Virus record (IMG/VR): IMGVR_UViG_3300032308_002092
Coordinates: 1 to 64,000 of that record
Length of the DNA: 64,000 nucleotides
Strand: one strand, 5' to 3'
Origin: a virus
Within the stretch, counting starts at the first letter, position 1; each line of letters starts with the position of its first letter. Made by a program: the position numbers and the translations under genes. The notes beneath the pieces are model-generated. The model saw only the letters and a program-made list of their open reading frames with translations, was not told the origin of the DNA and searched no databases. This document shows positions 2,204-61,271 of the stretch, piece after piece.

Positions 2204-2638
2204 ATGTCATTAAATCCAGAGAACAAGTGCGCCCAGCTTCTAAGCAACCCAGTAGCAGAGCTAGAGCTTGGCGAGCAGTCGCTGGTCAAGATGTTTGACA
2301 TGCAGAAATCTCTGCAAGAGAGACTTGGCTACGACTTCGACAATCTGACCATGGAGCAAAGAGTTGCCCACTTGAAGGAGAATTGGATCGCGCTTAGTGA
2401 CGAGTTCAGCGAGACGCTCGAGCGTTTGCCGTGGAAGAAGTGGAAGAAGTATACTCCAGAGGCAAAAGCCGACTGGACCTCAGAGGAGCAGAAAGTTGAG
2501 ACACAGTTCGAAGTTATCGATATGTTTCACTTCATGATCAACATGGCCCTCCTGGTGGGCATTGATGGAGAAACTGCGTGGAAGATGTACGCGCAAAAGA
2601 ACGCAGAGAATTTCGCACGTCAAGATAGAGGCTACTAA
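2204..2638 (+). CDS. Dimeric all-alpha dUTPase (MazG-superfamily)
   Basis: 144 residues. Enzymes of this family hydrolyse dUTP to dUMP and pyrophosphate. The sequence shows the family pattern: a MFDMQ...L helix near 30-40, metal-binding E67xxE70 followed by LPWKKWKK, the second acidic pair E103xxD106 in EVIDMFHF, and the C-terminal signature KNAENFARQDRGY. This matches the dUTPase_2 group, not trimeric dUTPases. Its activity would feed dUMP to thymidylate-synthase-like enzymes; two such homologues lie in the leftward cluster. Another dNTP specificity cannot be excluded. Confidence 0.75.
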   Translation: MSLNPENKCAQLLSNPVAELELGEQSLVKMFDMQKSLQERLGYDFDNLTMEQRVAHLKENWIALSDEFSETLERLPWKKWKKYTPEAKADWTSEEQKVETQFEVIDMFHFMINMALLVGIDGETAWKMYAQKNAENFARQDRGY

Positions 2639-12246: not shown

Positions 12247-15200
12247 GTGATTGCATTACTTTACCATGACGTCGAGACGACAGGTCTCGATTCTCGCCTC
12301 AACGATGTCATTCAGCTTGCTTGCATCCCAGTAATCAACGGTGTAGAGCAGAAGCACTTCAATGAGTTCTGTCAGCCGCTGAACTACGAGACCGTAGAGC
12401 AAGGCGCCATAGATGCCCACGGCATCACCGTTCAGAAGATGAAGACGTTTCAACTCCAGTCAGAGATGATCAAGTCTTTCGTGGCCTACCTCAAGCAGTT
12501 CAACTGCAACTTCGTCATGGCTGGCTTCAACATCAACTTCGACCGTAAGTTCCTAGGCGCCCTATTCCAAAAGCATGGGTTCAACGAGGAGTACCGAGAG
12601 TTCTTCTCCAACAACGTGCACGACGTGTACACTCGCGCCAAGCTACTCAAGTCCCAGAAGAAGATTGCCTCTGCTAAACTGGGTGTAGTGGCCGAGTACC
12701 TAGGTGTCACCCTAGACAACGCCCACGACGCGCTCAATGACATCAGGGCTACTATAGAAGTAGACGAGAAACTATCTGACCTTCTTGGCGAGCATCAGAT
12801 GGAGACCAACTCCTCTGTTGTCCTACCTGACTTCGACGTATCAGAGCCTCCTGCGCTACACCTCCACTCCGAGTACTCCGTCTACGACTCTGCAACTACC
12901 TCCGCACAGTGGCTCAAGTGGGCACAGAAGAACAAGGTCTCTGGAGTTGCGTTCCCGGACCACGTCTATGCTACTAGCTTATTCACCTCGGTCAACCCAC
13001 CGATGAACAAAGAGACGAAACAACCCCTGTACCCAGACGTAACGATGGTGCCAGCTATATCCATATGGGTCAGGGACAACGGCCTAGAGTACACCCTCAA
13101 CGCTTGGGCCACTAGCAACACCGGCTACCGCAATCTGATGAAGCTCTCTTCGCTGGGTTGGACCAACCCATACTCACTAGATGGCGACAAGAAAGTAGCG
13201 CCGTGCGTAGACCTAGAGACACTCAGCTCCCACAACGAAGACGTAGTGTTCGGCTCTGCTTGCGACAAAGGACTGCTGAGCGCCATACTGGACAGCACCA
13301 TGGACTTCGATTCTGCGGTCAAGTACGTGACGCATCTGTCCACTAATTTTTCGCTCATGTTCGAGCTACTCACGCTAGATATCAACAAGTACTACAGCCA
13401 GGTGTACGGTATGACAGCCTACAACAAGCCAGCTCTGTCGCCGTATCAGAACAGAGCCAAGGCTATAAACAATCTGGCTTGGTCGCTCTCGAAGCGAAGC
13501 ACCATCAGGTGTATCGTCTCTTCTGCGGCACACTTCATCGACGAGTCCGAGAAGATCGTCCAGGACTGCAAGATGAAGAACTCGTTCAAGGACGAGAGAT
13601 ACTTCTGGGAGTCCCGCCACCAGCGCAGTGCCAAGGAGCAGTACGCCATACTGGCATCCCACATAGAGGGATTCTCTTTGGGTTCTTGGATTGCACTCTG
13701 CAACAACGCCCAAGACATCGTAGAAGCGGCCAAATCAATCAAGATAAAGCACGACTACTTGCTACCAAAGATCGAGATCCCAGATGATATCAGATCTAAG
13801 ACCGACGACTATGATAAGCAACTGTATTACTTGACCATGAAGAAAGTTGTAGAGCACGGCAGGTGGAATGAAGATCCTACCTACGTAGCTCGCTTCAAGA
13901 AAGAGCTGGACGTGATCTGGAAGAACGACACCATGAACTTCCTCGCGTACTTCTTGCTGTACGAGGATATCGGCTCCTACGCTAGGTCACAGGGCGTTCT
14001 ACAAGGTCTTGCACGAGGATCTGCTGGTGGTAGTCTACTAAGCTACTACCTCAAGATCACCCACCTAGACCCAGTGAAGAACGATCTTCCATTCGAGCGA
14101 TTTCTCTCACATGCTCGAATCAAGGCAGGATCATTCCCTGACGTCGACTCTGACTTTGGAAACCGCACCCCTATCATCGCGTATCTGAAGAACAAGTACG
14201 GTCTAGGCTTCGCACAAGTAGGTACGTTCCTAAAGATGAAGGTGAAGTCGGCGATCAAGCAGGCGATGTTTGCACTGTACGGTAGACCATCAAACGACTT
14301 TGAGATCGCTAGACTCTGTGACCTCATCCCAGACTCTCCACAGGGACTAGATGAGTTCAAGTTCGTCTACGGCTACGTGGACAGCGAAGATGTATCCCAC
14401 AAAGGTGCAGTAGAGACAACACCAGAGCTGGCTAATTTCTTCAACCAGTACCCAGACTGTGAAGAGCTAGTAAAGAAGCTTCTAGGGCTACCAGCCTCAC
14501 TTGGCCGTCATGCTTCTGCGTTCGTGGTATCTACGGTTGATTTGTCTGATGGTCGGGTTCCAACGTTCTCCATTGACGACAACGATCTGGGCGCTATCCA
14601 AGTGGTACAACTAGACGGCGCGATGACTGAGAAGTCGGGTCTAGTCAAGGCGGATATCTTGGGCGTGACTACGATTCAAACCATCTCTGACTGCATTAAG
14701 CGCATAGGTAAGAGACATAGAGCAGATCTGCTAGAAGAAGACGACAAAGGCGTAGCACTCATATATCGCCTACCCGAAGATCCATCCGTGTACACTGATT
14801 TCTACAACAGGAAGACCGACTCCAGCTTCCAGTTCAACACGGATTTGATCAAGGGTTTTGTAAGAGACTTCGCGCCACAGTCAATCAAAGACCTCGCGGA
14901 CCTCACGGCCCTAGCTAGACCCGGTGCACTCGATGTCGAAGCGGCACCAGGTATCTCTGCGACCAAGCAGTACACCTTAGTGCGCAATGGTCAAGCTGAC
15001 CCAATATACGTCCACTCAGAGCTAGAGCCAATACTCAAAGAAACGTATGGGGTTGTAGCCTACCAAGAGCAGCTCATGAAGATCCTGGTAGATATTGCTG
15101 GCTACACTCTAGAGGAGTCTGACCAGATCCGCTCTGCCATCGCGAAGAAGAAGCGAGACGTGATGACCAAGGCTTTCGAGCGGATACGCGAAGCTACGGC

Positions 15201-16332
15201 CAAGCGTGGCTGGACACCAGTGCAAGCACAGGGACTTTGCGACGTCTTGACTGCATACTCTAACTATAGCTTTAACCGTAGTCACAGCTTCGCCTACGCT
15301 TCTCTCGGCTACATCACTATGTACCTCAAGCACCACTATCCGCTAGAGTGGTGGGCATCTGAACTCAACCTCTCCAACGAGGACAAGCTCCGTAAGTACA
15401 TGGGTGTGATCGGCAACCTCATCCAACCACCCAATCTCAAAGTCCCGTCCATGGAGTGGGAGATAGTTGACGACAAGATCTCTGCGCCGCTTACTTCCGT
15501 GAAGGGCATCGGCGAGAAACCAGTCAAGCAACTGATGGTGAATGCACCGTATGAATCCTTCGAGGAGTTGCTGAACACCAACGAGGGCCGCATCTTTCAC
15601 ATAGGTTCGTTCTCTGCCTGTCTCAAGGCCAGAGCCACTGATTGCTTCCTGGACCCATCACTACCCTACAAAGAAGCGAAGAAGAAACTGGTCTCTGCTT
15701 TCTTCGCTGCTCGCGGTAAGGATCCACGCCTAGTTGACAACGTACACAAGCGCAACGACATCAAGAAGAAGCAAGTAAAGCAGAAAGCGTTCGATCCGAT
15801 ATTCGAGGAGTCAGACCCTTTCAAGCTGTACCTTATGGAGCGAGAGGTATCCAAGGTCTTCTCGAAGTCTTTGCTGTCGGACGGTATGATTCGTGGCTGG
15901 CTTGAGTCTAACCTTGCAGCACTCAAACCAACCGGTAAGTCTCCGCTGCCGTACGTTATGGGGGAAGATCAAACGCCATTTCTCAGGGACGTGGATGTGA
16001 TGGCCAGACTACTAGAGAAGAATCCAGATATGGACAACTCGTTCTACGGGATCTTCCTGTTTCAGGGTTCAAGTGGAAAGAGTGGCACTTCAAAGAAATC
16101 TGGCAGACCATGGCAGAAATTGGAAGTAGAACTATCAGACGGAGTTAGAACTATCTATTGTACCATTTGGGACACAGATAAGCCGTTGAGATGGAACGTA
16201 GATATGCCAGTTATAGTCTATGGAAAGCTAGCACTAGACTGGCGCTCTAGGCCAACACTAGTTATTAAAAGTATCGAGAAGATAGAAGATATTATTTTTA
16301 GGAGAAAGAATGACAAAGTTCGTAATATCTAA
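12247..16332 (+). CDS. DNA polymerase III alpha-type with fused 3'-5' exonuclease
   Basis: 1361 residues, the probable replicative polymerase. Order: a DnaQ-like proofreading domain (D8-V-E10 and a later HDALND motif, to about residue 185); a PHP domain from LHLHSEYS (about 204-211) with PDH (238-239); the C-family core with GSAGGSLLSY, PDVDSDF (D632/D634), KADILG (D803), TYGVVAYQEQLM and YSFNRSHSFAYA; then helix-hairpin-helix (VKGIGEKP) and an OB fold near 1270-1350. Fusing the exonuclease at the N-terminus of a DnaE-like core is uncommon. Start is GTG after GGAG. No clamp, primase or replicative helicase is visible. Confidence 0.92.
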   Translation: MIALLYHDVETTGLDSRLNDVIQLACIPVINGVEQKHFNEFCQPLNYETVEQGAIDAHGITVQKMKTFQLQSEMIKSFVAYLKQFNCNFVMAGFNINFDRKFLGALFQKHGFNEEYREFFSNNVHDVYTRAKLLKSQKKIASAKLGVVAEYLGVTLDNAHDALNDIRATIEVDEKLSDLLGEHQMETNSSVVLPDFDVSEPPALHLHSEYSVYDSATTSAQWLKWAQKNKVSGVAFPDHVYATSLFTSVNPPMNKETKQPLYPDVTMVPAISIWVRDNGLEYTLNAWATSNTGYRNLMKLSSLGWTNPYSLDGDKKVAPCVDLETLSSHNEDVVFGSACDKGLLSAILDSTMDFDSAVKYVTHLSTNFSLMFELLTLDINKYYSQVYGMTAYNKPALSPYQNRAKAINNLAWSLSKRSTIRCIVSSAAHFIDESEKIVQDCKMKNSFKDERYFWESRHQRSAKEQYAILASHIEGFSLGSWIALCNNAQDIVEAAKSIKIKHDYLLPKIEIPDDIRSKTDDYDKQLYYLTMKKVVEHGRWNEDPTYVARFKKELDVIWKNDTMNFLAYFLLYEDIGSYARSQGVLQGLARGSAGGSLLSYYLKITHLDPVKNDLPFERFLSHARIKAGSFPDVDSDFGNRTPIIAYLKNKYGLGFAQVGTFLKMKVKSAIKQAMFALYGRPSNDFEIARLCDLIPDSPQGLDEFKFVYGYVDSEDVSHKGAVETTPELANFFNQYPDCEELVKKLLGLPASLGRHASAFVVSTVDLSDGRVPTFSIDDNDLGAIQVVQLDGAMTEKSGLVKADILGVTTIQTISDCIKRIGKRHRADLLEEDDKGVALIYRLPEDPSVYTDFYNRKTDSSFQFNTDLIKGFVRDFAPQSIKDLADLTALARPGALDVEAAPGISATKQYTLVRNGQADPIYVHSELEPILKETYGVVAYQEQLMKILVDIAGYTLEESDQIRSAIAKKKRDVMTKAFERIREATAKRGWTPVQAQGLCDVLTAYSNYSFNRSHSFAYASLGYITMYLKHHYPLEWWASELNLSNEDKLRKYMGVIGNLIQPPNLKVPSMEWEIVDDKISAPLTSVKGIGEKPVKQLMVNAPYESFEELLNTNEGRIFHIGSFSACLKARATDCFLDPSLPYKEAKKKLVSAFFAARGKDPRLVDNVHKRNDIKKKQVKQKAFDPIFEESDPFKLYLMEREVSKVFSKSLLSDGMIRGWLESNLAALKPTGKSPLPYVMGEDQTPFLRDVDVMARLLEKNPDMDNSFYGIFLFQGSSGKSGTSKKSGRPWQKLEVELSDGVRTIYCTIWDTDKPLRWNVDMPVIVYGKLALDWRSRPTLVIKSIEKIEDIIFRRKNDKVRNI

Positions 16333-28162: not shown

Positions 28163-29011
28163 ATGGCTTGGATTATCCTAGAGGGCGCAGATAAAGTAGG
28201 CAAGTCGACCGTGGCTAAACACTACGAGTCCAAGGGTTTTCAAGTCATACACTTCTCTGCCCCACCCAAAAAGTACTATGCCCCAGGCTATGCTGGCCCA
28301 AGCTACGTAGATGACTTGGTCGAGCGCTTAGTCCCACTATCCGGCAAGGATGTCTTATTCGACCGGTCCTGGTATGGTGAGCTCATCTGGTCCAAAGTCT
28401 ACAACCGTCCATGCCTAATAAACGAAGATGACCTAGAGCTGCTCTCAGAACTAGAGCAGCAGAACGACACGCGTAAAATCCTTCTACACGACCCAGACGT
28501 AGAAGCCCACTGGAAGAGGTGCGTCGAGAACAATGAGCCAGTCAACAGACAACAGTTCCTCCTCGTTAATCAGCTCTTCGAAGGACTTTGTAAACAACGC
28601 GCTTTTGAGAGGCTGGATTACAAGTCACTTCTCAGTGAGGGAAGGGGTGATACTAATAAGCCCAGCAATAGTAGCAACGACGCCGTCGTGGGACATAGCG
28701 AACCTACTGTGCCTCCTAGACAAGATGGAGATACTAGTAGTGAAACAAGCAAGTTGGAAAGAGTTCTATCCATGACGCCAGAGCAAAAACGCCTCGCAGA
28801 GGCCAATGCAATCAACGATGTACTCTCCAGGCCTATCGTGAAACACAAGGGTGATCACTTCCAGTCTATCGAGGCTAAGATTCGCGCTTTCTTGAACGAC
28901 GAGCTCGCGGTCCTCTTGGGTACAAAGCAAGAAGTAGAGGTTGCCTCTCTATCTAAAGACGAGATCTTATTTATTAAAACGCTAGTCAGCAAAGCAGGAG
29001 TAAAGAGATGA
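28163..29011 (+). CDS. Deoxynucleoside monophosphate kinase with extra C-terminal domain
   Basis: 282 residues. The N-terminal ~170 resemble thymidylate kinase: P-loop EGADKVGKST (6-15), DRSWYGELIW (DR of the DRY/H motif) and a lid-like EPVNRQQ. A Ser/Asn/Pro-rich linker (about 165-195) leads to a helical ~85-residue domain (MTPEQKRLAEANAINDVL...). The kinase would phosphorylate dTMP or a modified pyrimidine dNMP, as T4 gp1 does. Substrate unknown. It is the only nucleotide-metabolism gene in the head block. Confidence 0.65.
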   Translation: MAWIILEGADKVGKSTVAKHYESKGFQVIHFSAPPKKYYAPGYAGPSYVDDLVERLVPLSGKDVLFDRSWYGELIWSKVYNRPCLINEDDLELLSELEQQNDTRKILLHDPDVEAHWKRCVENNEPVNRQQFLLVNQLFEGLCKQRAFERLDYKSLLSEGRGDTNKPSNSSNDAVVGHSEPTVPPRQDGDTSSETSKLERVLSMTPEQKRLAEANAINDVLSRPIVKHKGDHFQSIEAKIRAFLNDELAVLLGTKQEVEVASLSKDEILFIKTLVSKAGVKR

Positions 29012-34587: not shown

Positions 34588-35028
34588 TTGAACATATTCG
34601 TAACCAGTAACTGCCCTAAGCGCAACGCTAGGCTCCTGGACAACAAGAGGCTGGTCAAGATGGTGCTAGAGACCACCCAGCTGCTCAGCAACACCTTGTG
34701 GCACCACTATGGCTCTGGACCATACAAAACAACCCATTTAAACCATCCCTGCAGCGTGTGGTTGCGTCAGTCTGGCGGCAACTACTGGTGGACTGTTCGC
34801 CTACTGGAGGAGATGTGTGCAGAGTATACCCGAAGGTACTGCAAGGTACACAAGTGCCAAGGCTTACTGCCTATGTTTCAGTCGGCCACCGTCGATGAAC
34901 AGCCCATGACTCCTTTCGTGAATTGTACCGATTTCAAGGACTTACCCACCTTCGCTGCGTACCGTAAGGCGATGCGAACCAAGTGGGCGAACGACAAACT
35001 CCCTCCCAGATGGACTTCCCGAACCTAG
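34588..35028 (+). CDS. Conserved phage protein of unknown function
   Basis: 146 residues starting at a TTG (MNIFVTSNCPKRNARLLDNKRLVKMVLE). The pattern MNIFV...A..L.D+..VKM.LET.QLL, then THLNHPCSVWLRQS..NY.W and EYTRRYCKVHKC, is a widespread phage protein family usually annotated as hypothetical. Conserved His, Trp and Arg residues suggest an enzyme. The start follows GGGAGA. Some annotation pipelines label relatives as DNA glycosylases; I see no support for that here. Confidence 0.65.
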   Translation: MNIFVTSNCPKRNARLLDNKRLVKMVLETTQLLSNTLWHHYGSGPYKTTHLNHPCSVWLRQSGGNYWWTVRLLEEMCAEYTRRYCKVHKCQGLLPMFQSATVDEQPMTPFVNCTDFKDLPTFAAYRKAMRTKWANDKLPPRWTSRT

Positions 35029-50068: not shown

Positions 50069-51292
50069 ATGCCCGCAGTAAGCGTAATACAACTGAGAAG
50101 AGCGACGGCAGCTCAATGGTCTAGTGCTAACCCAATCTTAGCCATTGGTGAGCTTGGATACGAGACAGACACCAACACCTACAAAGTGGGTGATGGCTCA
50201 ACTGCTTGGTCTTCATTATCCTATGGTGGGTTGGTTGGTCCGCAGCAAACAGAGGTGTTGGAAAGCTACGGCGATGGCTCTGATGGTGACGTAACTGTCT
50301 CATCAGGTGTTACTACCTTAGTTAGGGACACTTACTATAACAATCTAACTATCTCTGGTACTGGAAGTATTTTTACAAACGGTTGGAGAATATTCGTAAA
50401 AGGCACCCTAGATATATCGGCTGCCCCTGCCGGCGCGATAAACTGGAACGGAAACAACGGAAGCAACGCAACTACTTCGGCTGGCGCAAGCGGCGGCGCT
50501 GCTGTTACTGGAATAACAGTTGGAAGTACTTCAGGGGGCGGCACAGGAGCAAGCACGGGAAGTAACGCTGCTGGAGGAACAGGCACTTCGGTTTCATCAA
50601 TCGGATTGGGTAACGGCGGTGCGGGAGGAGGCGGCGGCGCTGGCGGTGCTGGTGCTGCTGGTGGTGCAAACGCTGGCGGAGCATCTACTGTGGGTGGTGC
50701 GATTACTGCAAGTTTTCCAATTAGACGCTATGAAACTGAGCTTATTAGAGGAACGGCCTTGATACCTGGCGGCAACGCCGGCCGAGGTGGATCTGGTGCA
50801 GGATCCGATAGCTCTGCAGGTGGCCGTAACGCTGGCGCTGGTGGAGGAGGAGCTAGTGGAGGAGTTGTTGCTGTCTGGGCAAAAACTATAAATCGAGGCG
50901 CTTCTACTGCTGTTGGTGCAATTAGAGCAAACGGCGGTAACGGTGGTAACGCAGCAAACGCTGCTGCTGGTATCACTGGTGGTGGCGGTGGTGGTGGTGG
51001 CGGCGGTGGCGGTTGGGTGTTCATTCAATACGATTCTCTTACAGGCACTTCTGCCACTAACGCAGTTACTGCAAATGGCGGTACAGGCGGCAACGGTGGC
51101 AACGGTTTGGGCGTCGGTGCAGCCGGAGGAACTGGTGGCCAAGGTGGTTCGGGCGGAAGAGTTACTCTACTAAACGTAAGAACGTCTACTGGCTCTGAGC
51201 TTGTAGGAACAGCAGGATCTGCCGGTAGTGGACCTTCAGGGTTAACAGGTGGTTCCGGCGGAGCTGGAAACTTAGCACAGGTGAATTTATAA
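50069..51292 (+). CDS. Glycine-rich adhesin with Mtd-like N-terminus
   Basis: 407 residues. The first ~55 (IQLRRATAAQWSSANPILAIGELGYETDTNTYKVGDGSTAWSSLSY) match the Mtd N-terminal fibre/tip module. A short conserved linker (DGDVTVSSGVTTLVRDTYYNNLTISGTG) leads to Gly-rich blocks (GGxGG runs) from about 125, as in polyglycine-sandwich receptor-binding adhesins. Paralogue of the next gene. Confidence 0.7.
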   Translation: MPAVSVIQLRRATAAQWSSANPILAIGELGYETDTNTYKVGDGSTAWSSLSYGGLVGPQQTEVLESYGDGSDGDVTVSSGVTTLVRDTYYNNLTISGTGSIFTNGWRIFVKGTLDISAAPAGAINWNGNNGSNATTSAGASGGAAVTGITVGSTSGGGTGASTGSNAAGGTGTSVSSIGLGNGGAGGGGGAGGAGAAGGANAGGASTVGGAITASFPIRRYETELIRGTALIPGGNAGRGGSGAGSDSSAGGRNAGAGGGGASGGVVAVWAKTINRGASTAVGAIRANGGNGGNAANAAAGITGGGGGGGGGGGGWVFIQYDSLTGTSATNAVTANGGTGGNGGNGLGVGAAGGTGGQGGSGGRVTLLNVRTSTGSELVGTAGSAGSGPSGLTGGSGGAGNLAQVNL

Positions 51293-51293
51293 T

Positions 51294-52523
51294 ATGGCAC
51301 AGAAAATTCAACTCAGGCAAGGAACAGCAGCTAGCTGGACTAGCACTGACCCCGTGCTGGCAGACGCAGAGATAGGCGTAGAGACAGATACTGGCAGATT
51401 TAAGTTTGGCAATGGTACCGACACGTGGTCGGTTAGAAGCTATGCTGATGTTCAAGGAGGAAACCAAACATTCCCCTATCGCTCATTCGGCGATGGCTCT
51501 GATGGTGATGTGGTTGTTAACTCTGGGACCACGACTCTGGTTAGAGATATGTACTACAACAATCTAACCGTGTCTAGTACTGGAAAAATTACTACACAGG
51601 GTTTTAAGGTGTTCGTCAAGGGGGTTTTAGACCTTTCTAATGCAGGTGCTAGCGCTATAAACGCAGATGGAGCCGCTGGAGCAAATGCCACCGGATCTGC
51701 CGGTGGTGTAACGCCGAGTGCGTATGCAGCTGGATCTTCTGCTGCACAAGGCCAGGGAACATCAGGATCTACAGGTGTGACCGGCACGGGCGTGGCTTCA
51801 GCCACACCTACTGCGATCACTGGTAACGGTGGTATTTCTAACACCGCAGGAAATGGTGGTGCTGGAACAAACGCCGGCGCAACCGGCGGAGGTGGCGCTT
51901 CGCCAACCTCCAACGATATAAATATTTATGCCACTAATTTATTTAGAGGCGTCACGCTGCTAGGCGGAGGCTGCGGCGGTAGAGGAGGGGCTTCTGGCGG
52001 GGGAGACGGAGTCAACACTGGTGGCGGTGGCGGTGGCGGAGGAAACGGCGGCGGCGTTCTTGCCTTGTACGCTAATATCATAGTGACATCGTCGTCTACT
52101 TCTCAGTCGTGCATATCTGCGTTGGGCGGCAACGGCGGCAATGGTGGATCTACTTCTGCAGGGGTCACCGGCGGCGGTGGAGCTGGCAGTGGTGGCGGTG
52201 GTGGTTGGATATACTTAGTGTACAACAGAAAGTACGGCCCAACTATCACAAACATGCTGAATGCTTCCGGTGGTGTAGGTGGCGCAGGCGGCAACAGCTT
52301 TGGCACCCTGACGTCAGGTCTGCCTGCTGGTGGCGGTGGCGCTGGTGACGGCGGGTATGCTGGCCGCATAACCACATATCAAGTCCCAACCGCTGTAGGT
52401 AGAAGCTTATTTGCGGTTACTAATAACATCTACAATCCTAAGGTTGACATAAGCAACAGTGCTCAAACAGACGGCATTGGAAAGAATGGCGGCGAAAGCG
52501 GCCTATTATATGGAGATTTTTAA
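51294..52523 (+). CDS. Glycine-rich adhesin, paralogue of the preceding gene
   Basis: 409 residues with the same layout: MAQKIQLRQGTAASWTSTDPVLADAEIGVETDTGRFKFGNGTDTW, then GDGSDGDVVVNSGTTTLVRDMYYNNLTV, then Gly-rich blocks. The N-terminal and linker regions are well conserved with the previous product; the Gly-rich blocks and insertions differ. This suggests duplication with divergence of the receptor-binding surface. Confidence 0.7.
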   Translation: MAQKIQLRQGTAASWTSTDPVLADAEIGVETDTGRFKFGNGTDTWSVRSYADVQGGNQTFPYRSFGDGSDGDVVVNSGTTTLVRDMYYNNLTVSSTGKITTQGFKVFVKGVLDLSNAGASAINADGAAGANATGSAGGVTPSAYAAGSSAAQGQGTSGSTGVTGTGVASATPTAITGNGGISNTAGNGGAGTNAGATGGGGASPTSNDINIYATNLFRGVTLLGGGCGGRGGASGGGDGVNTGGGGGGGGNGGGVLALYANIIVTSSSTSQSCISALGGNGGNGGSTSAGVTGGGGAGSGGGGGWIYLVYNRKYGPTITNMLNASGGVGGAGGNSFGTLTSGLPAGGGGAGDGGYAGRITTYQVPTAVGRSLFAVTNNIYNPKVDISNSAQTDGIGKNGGESGLLYGDF

Positions 52524-55107: not shown

Positions 55108-55115
55108 TATTTATA
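55108..55115 (-). promoter_or_regulatory. Leftward TATAAATA promoter-like box
   Basis: On the minus strand the sequence is GAGGTATAAATACATC, an exact TATAAATA. It overlaps the stop of the deaminase gene and would drive the four small genes to its left. Confidence 0.55.
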
Positions 55116-55962
55116 CCTCAGATATAATTCGCCTAAGTTCTTGGATAGCGCTCTGAGCTTCTTCCTTGTTGTTCCAAAAGCGGGATAGTCCGCTTGGGTG
55201 AGGCATGTGATGTCTCTTGCACTGATACATACTCAGTACGTCCCTAGCTGTATCTCCAACTGTTACCAGTAGATCTGGGTCTAGTTCTTTCAACTCGAAG
55301 CCTAGTCTGAAGAAGCCTTGCTCCATCTGCTTCTTGCTTAGGGATTTGTTTAGCGTGGTTTTCTCGTTGCATACGTTCAAGAAAACTACGTGGATGTCCA
55401 AGCCGTTTACCCACTCTCTTACTTTCCTACCGGACTTCGTGTCTGGATGGAAGGCTGAGTTGTCTGGGGAGTTGTTGCTTGGGTTTGAGCCAACGAACAC
55501 CACTCGGGGTAGTCTGGGTTTGTAGGTTAGTTCTGTGTAGCCTTCTGGCGTGGCATGCTCGCTTATGTATAGGTCTCTCATCTCTTTTAGAGATCCGAAG
55601 TCCTTGTACTTCTCTTTCACGACAACCTTCTCTATACCTGCCTGGTAGATCGCTCGCATACATGTCACACACGGAGACATAGTGCAGACCAGGTACTTAC
55701 CCTCTGTGGAGATGCCTTGCTTGGCGCACGACGCCAGCATATTGATCTCGCTGTGGACGATGTATCTGTATTTGTCTGGCCTTTTGCTTGGGAGACGGTG
55801 GTCACATGCGCCTCTTACGAAACCGTTGCAGGCAGATGCTAGTGCCATACCGCTCTTGCTGTCAACTATGACGCACCCAACTTGAGTTTCTTCGTCGTGA
55901 GACCTTAGTGCCGCGACCTCAGCTAACCGCATGAGCTGCTCTGTCTTAGAGATCCTCTTCAT
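55111..55962 (-). CDS. dCMP deaminase fused to a uracil-DNA-glycosylase-like domain
   Basis: 283 residues. Residues 1-145 are a zinc deaminase of the dCMP type: H70-S-E72 and P97-C98-V-T-C101. Residues 152-280 resemble the UDG superfamily: VVFVGSNPSNN (motif A-like, G158), a second strand VVFLNVCN, DPDLLVTVGDTARDVL, and HPSGLSRFW (motif B, H255). Deamination would make dUMP for the thymidylate-synthase homologues. The attached domain could remove uracil from DNA or bind it. The fusion is unusual. Confidence 0.75.
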   Translation of the reverse strand: MKRISKTEQLMRLAEVAALRSHDEETQVGCVIVDSKSGMALASACNGFVRGACDHRLPSKRPDKYRYIVHSEINMLASCAKQGISTEGKYLVCTMSPCVTCMRAIYQAGIEKVVVKEKYKDFGSLKEMRDLYISEHATPEGYTELTYKPRLPRVVFVGSNPSNNSPDNSAFHPDTKSGRKVREWVNGLDIHVVFLNVCNEKTTLNKSLSKKQMEQGFFRLGFELKELDPDLLVTVGDTARDVLSMYQCKRHHMPHPSGLSRFWNNKEEAQSAIQELRRIISEV

Positions 55963-56152
55963 CGTCAGTCTCCCTAGCCTCAGACATGCTTTCTACGTAT
56001 GGCGTGAACTTGTACTCTACTGGTTTGTATTTAACGCCCTTGACTTTCTGCTTGACCAAGCCCCTAACTGGGCAAGTGAACTCGACTTCGGTCCAGAATT
56101 CCTCTAGAACCTCTGCCTTCCTCTCCCCAGTGTGCTTCTTCTTTCTGCTCAC
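55946..56152 (-). CDS. Small basic protein of unknown function
   Basis: 68 residues from a GTG overlapping the ThyX-like stop, with GGAG upstream. Lys-rich N-terminus and acidic C-terminus; no family recognised. Overlaps the deaminase gene by 17 bases, indicating translational coupling between the ThyX-like and deaminase genes. Confidence 0.6.
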   Translation of the reverse strand: MSRKKKHTGERKAEVLEEFWTEVEFTCPVRGLVKQKVKGVKYKPVEYKFTPYVESMSEARETDDEEDL

Positions 56153-58443: not shown

Positions 58444-58896
58444 CTACTCCTCTATCAGCTTCTCTATCTCGTAGTCAGCCATGACCCTTGATATAAGGTC
58501 TTCCGATAGACCAGAGTAGCTACTTGGTACATTGACGTTCACCACGCCATATATTGCCTTAAGCTTATTCTTGTATTTGATGTCCTTCAGGAGGAACTCT
58601 AGATCTTCCGTGGATAGATCGCCAGATTTTAGTAACTGTTTTAGTTGCTCTGCTTGTTGCTCTGGGTCGTACGGACCGAACGTGTTGTTGATAATGCCAC
58701 TAGTGTTTGGTCCAAGCGTCCAAGAGCCTGATGAGAATGTGCCAGCTTGATTAGACATGGTGTGAGTAGTCGTAGTGTTAGGCACAATTTTGCCTTGTAT
58801 AGTGTGAGTAGTCGTAGTGTATGGTGAGCCAACTGTTACCGGCACATCACTTGGCACTTGATACTCTTGTCCGTTAATTGTTACTTTTTTACTCAT
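58444..58896 (-). CDS. Protein of unknown function with repeated Thr/His motifs
   Basis: 150 residues. The N-terminal half has two similar stretches (YTTTTHTIQGK and NTTTTHTMSNQ), the C-terminal half is helical. No family recognised. Its ATG overlaps the ThyA-like stop. Confidence 0.6.
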   Translation of the reverse strand: MSKKVTINGQEYQVPSDVPVTVGSPYTTTTHTIQGKIVPNTTTTHTMSNQAGTFSSGSWTLGPNTSGIINNTFGPYDPEQQAEQLKQLLKSGDLSTEDLEFLLKDIKYKNKLKAIYGVVNVNVPSSYSGLSEDLISRVMADYEIEKLIEE

Positions 58897-59636
58897 TCTA
58901 CGTACCCTATCATCTTCTTTACGGTTTCTATTGTACTTTCGTAGATATGGAGGGAGTGGGCGATGTGCGTGAAGGTACCTTTCTGGAGGTCGGGGTAGGT
59001 ATCTTTAAGCTCTAGCAACATGTCATCCATTAGTCCCATGAAGAACGGCCAGTCAAATGCAGTTCCTTTGACCAGATCGTTAGCGCGCATCACTATCGAT
59101 AAGTTCAGACGATTATCTCGAATCAACCAGTTGCCATGAGTAGTGCAAGTAAAGTCGCGCACGCCCTTATAGAAGTGCTCTGGTCTACTGAACCTCATGA
59201 GTGCCTGACGGGTGTCTTTGTCTGCTTTGAGGGCTTCTACGCACCATTGCCACGGGGTCCTCATTACACCCTCGAACTCAGGATTGCCGTGGTCTGCCAA
59301 ACCCTTGATCAGATAACCGTACGCTGAGTTCACGGTACCATTTGGGTTACCCAGCTTACCCCAGAACTTAGAGATCTTCTCGAAGTCCTCTACCTTGTTA
59401 CTCATGCTGTAGTAGAGGTTTTTCTCTTTCTGGGTGTAGCTCGCGATTACTTTGTTGCGCTCCAGATCCCTAGTCACCAGCGGCTCTGAGTCTGGGTATA
59501 GGATCTCAATTACTGCGTCGGTAACTTCATGTATCTTCTGCCCCCTAGGTGAGCAGACAAACTCTGGCTCCAGCAGTACACCCTCTAGAAGCTTGACGTA
59601 CGCTTCACTCGGGGTTTTGTACGTATGCGCTCTCAT
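58893..59636 (-). CDS. Thymidylate synthase/deoxypyrimidine hydroxymethylase homologue
   Basis: 247 residues, shorter at the N-terminus than ThyA but with the catalytic core: C164 (FTCTTHGNW), LIRDNRLNL, VMRANDLVKG (R184, D187), and HSLHIYE (H230, Y232). Where ThyA has Asn in LPFN to select uracil, this protein has GTAFD (D195). Asp at that position is typical of dCMP hydroxymethylases such as T4 gp42. The substrate could therefore be dCMP rather than dUMP; product (methyl or hydroxymethyl) unknown. Confidence 0.7.
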   Translation of the reverse strand: MRAHTYKTPSEAYVKLLEGVLLEPEFVCSPRGQKIHEVTDAVIEILYPDSEPLVTRDLERNKVIASYTQKEKNLYYSMSNKVEDFEKISKFWGKLGNPNGTVNSAYGYLIKGLADHGNPEFEGVMRTPWQWCVEALKADKDTRQALMRFSRPEHFYKGVRDFTCTTHGNWLIRDNRLNLSIVMRANDLVKGTAFDWPFFMGLMDDMLLELKDTYPDLQKGTFTHIAHSLHIYESTIETVKKMIGYVE

Positions 59637-60926: not shown

Positions 60927-61271
60927 TTATTTTTCTTCGTATCTTCGGATGTTTACTTTTCTTTGGGTGGCCAAACTAACCATGTTCTCTGTTCCTCTAC
61001 CGCCTGGAAAGGCTACCACTAGGTCTGGCTTACCTTCGTCTAGCATCTGTAGGTTGCGATACGGACCTGCGGATTTCCCAAAGCGAGCCCAATCTGCGGG
61101 GAAGGTGAGTGTTTGTACTCGGTTCTTCCTCGCCCACTCCCTCGCGCAAGCGTCTGCTCCAGTGGCTCCGCCTTCTATGACCACAGTGATGTCTGACCTA
61201 TACTCGTCTAGGACTTCATCCACCGCCGCCTGGTCCCAGTAGTTTCTGCCACCACATACCAGTATTCTCAT
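60927..61271 (-). CDS. SLOG/YspA-like (DUF2493) nucleotide-binding protein
   Basis: 114 residues. MRILVCGGRNYWD...VVIEGGATGADACAREWA...FPADW...AGPYRNLQML...VVAFPGGRGTENMV is the DUF2493 pattern of the SLOG (Rossmann-like) superfamily. Members bind nucleotides or nucleotide-derived signals; some are linked to defence and counter-defence. The ligand here is unknown. Confidence 0.8.
   Translation of the reverse strand: MRILVCGGRNYWDQAAVDEVLDEYRSDITVVIEGGATGADACAREWARKNRVQTLTFPADWARFGKSAGPYRNLQMLDEGKPDLVVAFPGGRGTENMVSLATQRKVNIRRYEEK

Follow-up and report, generated by a model that had tools for sequence, protein, structure and literature searches.

We describe a phage gene that joins a dCMP deaminase to a domain of the uracil-DNA glycosylase (UDG) superfamily within one protein. 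Comparison with related phages suggests that the conserved unit is a pair or trio of genes, i.e. dCMP hydroxymethylase-like, dCMP deaminase and UDG-like, in phages for which cytosine modification is predicted. The preliminary description of this DNA was right in taking the fusion as real and missed this unit, the fusion itself being seen in one contig. In our judgement the chances are about even that the protein is a SMUG1-like U/hmU-DNA glycosylase of a cytosine-modified phage, fused to the deaminase that makes the precursor.

The analysed stretch, termed the window, comprises the first 64 kb of a 151,207-bp IMG/VR phage contig. The fused gene and its parts are located as follows:

55111..55962, minus strand: fused gene, dCMP deaminase plus UDG-superfamily domain (single open reading frame, 283 aa)
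55519..55962, minus strand: N-terminal dCMP deaminase domain, residues 1-148 (Pfam PF00383, PHROG 174, PDB sequence and fold matches)
55507..55551, minus strand: junction, approximately residues 138-152 (where the two genes of the relatives are set apart by a stop and a new start)
55114..55518, minus strand: C-terminal UDG-superfamily domain, residues 149-283 (PF03167, 4.4e-10; model pLDDT 92.4)
55477..55491, minus strand: motif I GSNPS, residues 158-162 (alignments; N160 aligned with MUG N18, the counterpart of SMUG1 Asn85)
55375..55377, minus strand: N196, paired in the profile alignment with Asn82, the base-recognising residue of S. tokodaii UDG
55180..55203, minus strand: motif II PHPSGLSR, residues 254-261 (P254-G258 invariant in 80 of 80 sequences)

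Open reading frame, coordinates and strand agree with the single gene recognised in the preliminary description, as do the residues it named (H70, C98 and C101, GSNPS at 158-162 and HPSGLSR at 255-261). Its claim that a deaminase and a UDG-like domain share one protein is borne out, with both halves above the Pfam gathering scores and the active site intact. The dCMP_cyt_deam_1 family (PF00383) covers residues 5-115 (2.7e-19, 69.4 bits, gathering cut-off 25) and the UDG family (PF03167) residues 149-276 (4.4e-10, 40.2 bits, gathering cut-off 24.3). The N-terminal half matches PHROG 174 dCMP deaminase (2.5e-32), has the dCMP deaminase fold and carries an HxE and PCxxC zinc site, the zinc and catalytic residues being H70, E72, C98 and C101. 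A PDB fold search with the AlphaFold2 model of the full-length protein (pLDDT 89.6) retrieved UDGs as well as dCMP deaminases, the latter from S. mutans, cyanophage S-TIM5, T4 and human. Fold and two-domain architecture of the fused protein are well supported. The nearest PDB sequence to the deaminase half is 7fh4, a dCMP/dCTP enzyme; the predicted substrate is dCMP, possibly hm-dCMP or dCTP.

For the C-terminal half, structure prediction had been proposed as a check, and the AlphaFold2 model computed from an alignment with ten relatives (pLDDT 92.4, pTM 0.87) has a UDG fold. All 50 of its 50 PDB fold matches at E<=1e-3 belong to the UDG superfamily, comprising families 4/5, SMUG1, UdgX, MUG, TDG and UNG. 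Together with the Pfam score, this rules out a non-UDG fold or a chance match.

Conservation of the active site was analysed in 80 aligned sequences, where N196, P161, G236, P254-G258 (including H255) and N264 are invariant and N160 is Asn in 70. In SMUG1, catalysis involves Asn85 and His239 and base choice Phe98 and Asn163 (PMC6749576), while in S. tokodaii UDG F55 provides stacking and Asn82 recognises the base (PMC11078745). The Asn/Phe/Asn/His set described for SMUG1 is present as N160, F171, N196 and H255, based on profile alignment and motif position. In the profile alignment F171 pairs with F55 of S. tokodaii UDG; it is not conserved in the group 2 UDG-like proteins described below, which are shorter in that region. 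Replacement of Asn by Asp at the equivalent position converts UNG into a cytosine glycosylase (PMC11289083), and the base-recognition residue of Brig1 is Glu147 (PMC11078745). The invariant Asn at this position suggests that a U-type base (U, hmU) is favoured over a cytosine-type base. This argument is not absolute, as TDG also has Asn at the base-recognition position and yet excises oxidised cytosines.

The reading frame of the fused gene is open across the junction. There is no ATG nearby and the only other in-frame candidates are two GTG codons without a Shine-Dalgarno-like sequence. Thus, with a continuous frame and no remnant start or ribosome site, the junction does not support two separate proteins in the window contig. 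Both alternative frames stay open for about 30 codons beyond the junction, so that the overlapping stop and start of the relatives cannot be restored by an error of one or two bases. It might be argued that a sequencing or assembly error merged an ATGA-coupled gene pair, since the fusion is present in one contig only, the relatives have overlapping separate genes and a 2-base change could in principle join such frames. Given that no leftover start codon or ribosome site is seen, that the other frames have no stop close by and that the linker is shorter than in the related locus L001, we regard an artefact as very improbable indeed.

A second deaminase-UDG fusion was not found among 80 loci. 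Since the outgroup deaminases are unfused, a single fusion event on the window branch is the simplest history. Trees place the window deaminase outside the other deaminases with weak support, and the derived state of the fusion is therefore an argument from parsimony. Two other proteins considered as similar fusions were ruled out: RAS14 carries an N-terminal extension and no UDG domain, and gp49 of a Tunturiibacter phage (L038 3983-4945) is a dCMP deaminase joined to a carbohydrate-binding module, CBM5/12 (6.4e-10), rather than to a UDG. A further deaminase with an additional part, encoded at L018 3898-4998, has an N-terminal extension resembling an HNH-type endonuclease.

In every other phage found, deaminase and UDG-like domain are encoded by separate genes, usually adjacent or overlapping. 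In the group 1 lineages (L001, L010, L012-14, L015, L016, L017, L018-21 and L024) the UDG-like gene lies downstream of a separate dCMP deaminase gene, and the end of the one and the start of the other frequently overlap by 4 bases (L001, L015, L018). The surroundings of the fused gene and further genes of nucleotide metabolism and repair in the window phage are listed here:

58893..59636, minus strand: ThyA-fold gene of dCMP-hydroxymethylase type with Asp at the specificity position (PF00303, 2.5e-12)
55946..56152, minus strand: small CPVRG-protein gene, upstream of the fused gene and overlapping its start (neighbour kept in relatives)
2204..2638, plus strand: all-alpha dUTPase_2-type gene (PF08761, 3.3e-8, at 2282-2563)
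28163..29011, plus strand: nucleotide-kinase-like gene, candidate dNMP kinase (PF03976, 5.7e-5; thymidylate kinase PHROG merely 0.025)
34588..35028, plus strand: pyrimidine-dimer-glycosylase-like gene (PF03013, 1.1e-10; near the UDG-like gene in L001 and L012)

The ThyA-fold gene, located about 3 kb from the fused gene, encodes a protein whose best PDB match is T4 dCMP hydroxymethylase (3.1e-14), and its FDWPF motif aligns with the Asp of the T4 enzyme. Such a gene is present in 10 of 10 group 1 genomes tested, window phage included, and its specificity position is occupied by Asp in those group 1 phages whose sequence was read. A separate ThyX was found in 9 of the 10-11 genomes tested, a 108-kb contig being without it, so that the ThyA-fold gene is not required for dTMP. 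As the group 1 relatives represent one phage lineage, co-occurrences within the group are not independent. Known DNA glucosyltransferases were not found in group 1 genomes, where the AGT search had no positive control.

Genes with PF03013 recur, often near the UDG-like gene (window 34588-35028; L001 9760-10356; L012 5869-6357; L088 880-1416; L112 370-912). The window further encodes a DNA polymerase III alpha subunit of bacterial type belonging to the phage itself, which has exonuclease and PHP domains (12247-16332), a YspA-type SLOG domain protein (60927-61271; 9e-20), possibly nucleotide-sensing, and two adjoining glycine-rich paralogues with a common N-terminal repeat (50069-52523), probably tail or fibre proteins. 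Another phage genome holds a VWA/metallopeptidase-like (DUF2201) and MoxR-like pair (L003 5680-7086 and 13472-14596), as in MoxR-VWA systems.

A wider IMG/VR scan yielded 80 loci, 79 of them with a scored UDG-like open reading frame, forming 44 clusters at 80% identity. A dCMP deaminase occurs in the flank of 24 of these 44 clusters, within 250 bp in 18, and is absent from the flank in 15 clusters having at least 1 kb upstream. Flanking ThyA-fold genes carry Asp at the dUMP/dCMP specificity position in 19 of 19 cases, as in T4 dCMP hydroxymethylase.

The scan includes a divergent group 2 (e.g. L061, L065, L088, L091, L099, L112, L115), in which a T4-type dCMP hydroxymethylase, a dCMP deaminase and the UDG-like protein are encoded in compact order. 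These genes mostly overlap, with a wider gap ahead of the UDG-like gene in L061 and L111, and in L116 the hydroxymethylase gene directly overlaps the UDG-like gene with no deaminase between them. Taken singly, the group 2 UDG-like proteins have marginal Pfam UDG scores below the cut-off (6e-4 to 1.2e-3); profile comparison shows that they are homologous to those of group 1 (99.9%, 1.7e-31). Neighbours at the group 2 loci examined are genes for PRA-PH, pyrimidine-dimer-glycosylase-like proteins, UDP-galactopyranose mutase, an epimerase, inositol-1-phosphate synthase or proteins with a 5-hmdU-kinase helical domain. L061, L065, L088, L112 and similar loci appear to be cytosine-hypermodification operons of uncultured phages, and such operons also hold several large unannotated proteins (L088 4353-7451).

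In the MetaGPA study, Asp at the ThyA specificity position marks cytosine-modified contigs, with which PF00383 deaminases co-occur (PMC8670742). We consider the link between the UDG-like genes and cytosine modification in these phages a strong inference. Cytosine-modified phages are not the only carriers of the family, as no ThyA-fold gene was found on several large contigs bearing a UDG-like gene (146, 98, 154 and 139 kb) and in one such phage the ThyA is of the Asn type. These exceptions, and the deaminase that adjoins or is fused to the UDG-like gene in many phages, would fit a plain uracil guard, i.e. an enzyme that removes U put into DNA from a dUTP pool raised by the deaminase, the cytosine-modification setting being incidental. 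However, a dUTPase is already encoded by the window phage and most relatives (seven relatives have the trimeric type, the window phage the all-alpha type), the UDG-like gene of L116 is coupled to the hydroxymethylase without a deaminase, and none of the 19 flanking ThyA-fold genes departs from the Asp type. We therefore view a plain uracil guard as unlikely, though worth serious consideration.

The same neighbourhoods, with Asp-type ThyA genes and in group 2 sugar and hypermodification genes next to the UDG-like gene, would also suit a modified-cytosine glycosylase like Brig1 or Brig3, acting against hmC competitor phages or discarding incompletely modified bases of the phage's own DNA. Brig3 likewise has an active-site Asn-Pro-Ser loop, formed by N50, P51 and S52 (PMC13160076). 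In contrast to Brig1, the acidic base-recognition residue is absent and Asn is found in 80 of 80 sequences, and such an enzyme would threaten the DNA of its own phage. We give this explanation little credence.

A second fusion was found in Bacillus phage G by a fold search of viral models. Its gp315 (L037 4928-5923), annotated as thymidylate kinase only, consists of a nucleotide kinase with a C-terminal UDG domain (PF03167, 1.5e-12), and nearby genes encode a dCMP deaminase (gp317), an Asp-type ThyA (gp319) and an AGT-like alpha-glucosyltransferase (gp313). Both phages thus join a UDG domain to an enzyme of dNTP synthesis within a similar gene cluster; gp315 differs in its thymidylate-kinase-like partner and in its motifs QNPGG and HPAY. 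We regard the two fusions as having arisen independently. The other matches of this search were UDG-like domains on phage DNA polymerases.

As these partners are nucleotide enzymes, a deaminase in the window phage and a kinase in phage G, the UDG-fold domain could also act on free nucleotides, or serve the deaminase as a binding or targeting module without catalysis of its own. Retention of motifs I and II and the base-recognition Asn over 80 divergent sequences speaks against this, as does the HPSG[LMR]NR loop, which is similar to the DNA-wedging loop of MUG and SMUG1, and we attach even less weight to this explanation than to a modified-cytosine glycosylase.

A tblastn comparison of six UDG-like proteins with 50,697 reference phage records found no relatives, and the family is thus readily overlooked by annotation based on cultured phages. 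None was confirmed in GTDB genome contigs at tblastn-level sensitivity. The genome profile search overlooked the PF03167 domain of L001 (hmmscan 1e-9), and its negatives are hence weak. Among the papers searched, none brings the four relevant subjects together.

Taken together, we propose the following model for a SMUG1-like U/hmU-DNA glycosylase. The carrier of the fused gene would be a large tailed phage with predicted modified cytosine. The N-terminal half would convert dCMP to dUMP, and perhaps also yield hm-dUMP, the separate ThyX would convert dUMP to dTMP, and the Asp-type ThyA-fold enzyme, whose gene lies 3 kb from the fused one, would hydroxymethylate (or methylate) dCMP. The C-terminal half would flip out and excise U-type bases, uracil or more likely 5-hydroxymethyluracil (hmU), which could stem from dUMP or hm-dUMP carried up to the triphosphate or from hmC deaminating in DNA. 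That coupling to enzymes of precursor synthesis recurs suggests that the glycosylase is delivered together with the dNTP-synthesis complex. Being fused in the window phage and translationally coupled in its relatives, it may stay with the dNTP-synthesis machinery and hence near the replication fork. Phages that use hmC for cytosine face deamination of hmC to hmU, and we know of no phage enzyme assigned to hmU repair. A more tentative proposal, which we hold at somewhat less than even chance, is that these proteins form a dedicated base-excision part of phage cytosine modification, SMUG1-like enzymes that clear hmU (from deaminated hmC or incorporated hm-dUMP) and reach the fork through being fused with or coupled to dCMP deaminase, dCMP hydroxymethylase or dNMP kinase. 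With the trio in two divergent phage groups and two independent fusions, the question can be tested with small proteins.

Comparison with the known UDG families places the domain within the superfamily, and one tested defining feature fails for each of SMUG1, family 2 and family 4, so that it cannot be assigned to any of them. SMUG1 (family 3) is similar in fold (GmeSMUG1 1.2e-5, human SMUG1 3.3e-5), in the motif I Asn (GSNPS/GMNPS here and GMNPG in SMUG1), in the HPS of motif II, in the stacking Phe (group 1) and in the base-recognition Asn. However, the present domain is shorter (about 135 aa compared to 215-250), its motif I ends in Ser, and sequence likeness to SMUG1 above chance was not found, with no SMUG1 chain among the PDB sequence-profile matches even at E<=10. 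MUG/TDG (family 2) shares the motif I Asn (GINPG in MUG) and the GLSR following motif II, with a sequence-profile match to MUG of 2.9e-4. In contrast to family 2, Asn occupies the base-recognition position here and motif II opens with His rather than Asn; the family 2 opening (Asn/Met, NPSGLSR) is absent, HPSG being found in 80 of 80 sequences. Families 4/5 (S. tokodaii, T. maritima, T. thermophilus) and UdgX provide the best profile match (4zbx, 1.2e-5) and the best TM-scores (0.73-0.78), whereas the Ala of their GEAPG motif is replaced by Asn here and the alignments contain no conserved Cys that could represent the four 4Fe-4S cluster ligands of family 4. Judged from these sequence comparisons, the domain probably represents a new UDG subfamily in a new fusion, SMUG1-like by its residues. 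Phage family-A DNA polymerases with a UDG-like domain similarly tie the UDG fold to the replication machinery, the partner there being a polymerase. Brig1 and Brig3 share the UDG superfamily and the tie to modified cytosine, but they belong to bacterial defence and attack the DNA of phages, whereas the proteins described here are phage-encoded. On the phage side, these new small UDG-fold enzymes may be a counterpart of the Brig defence glycosylases.
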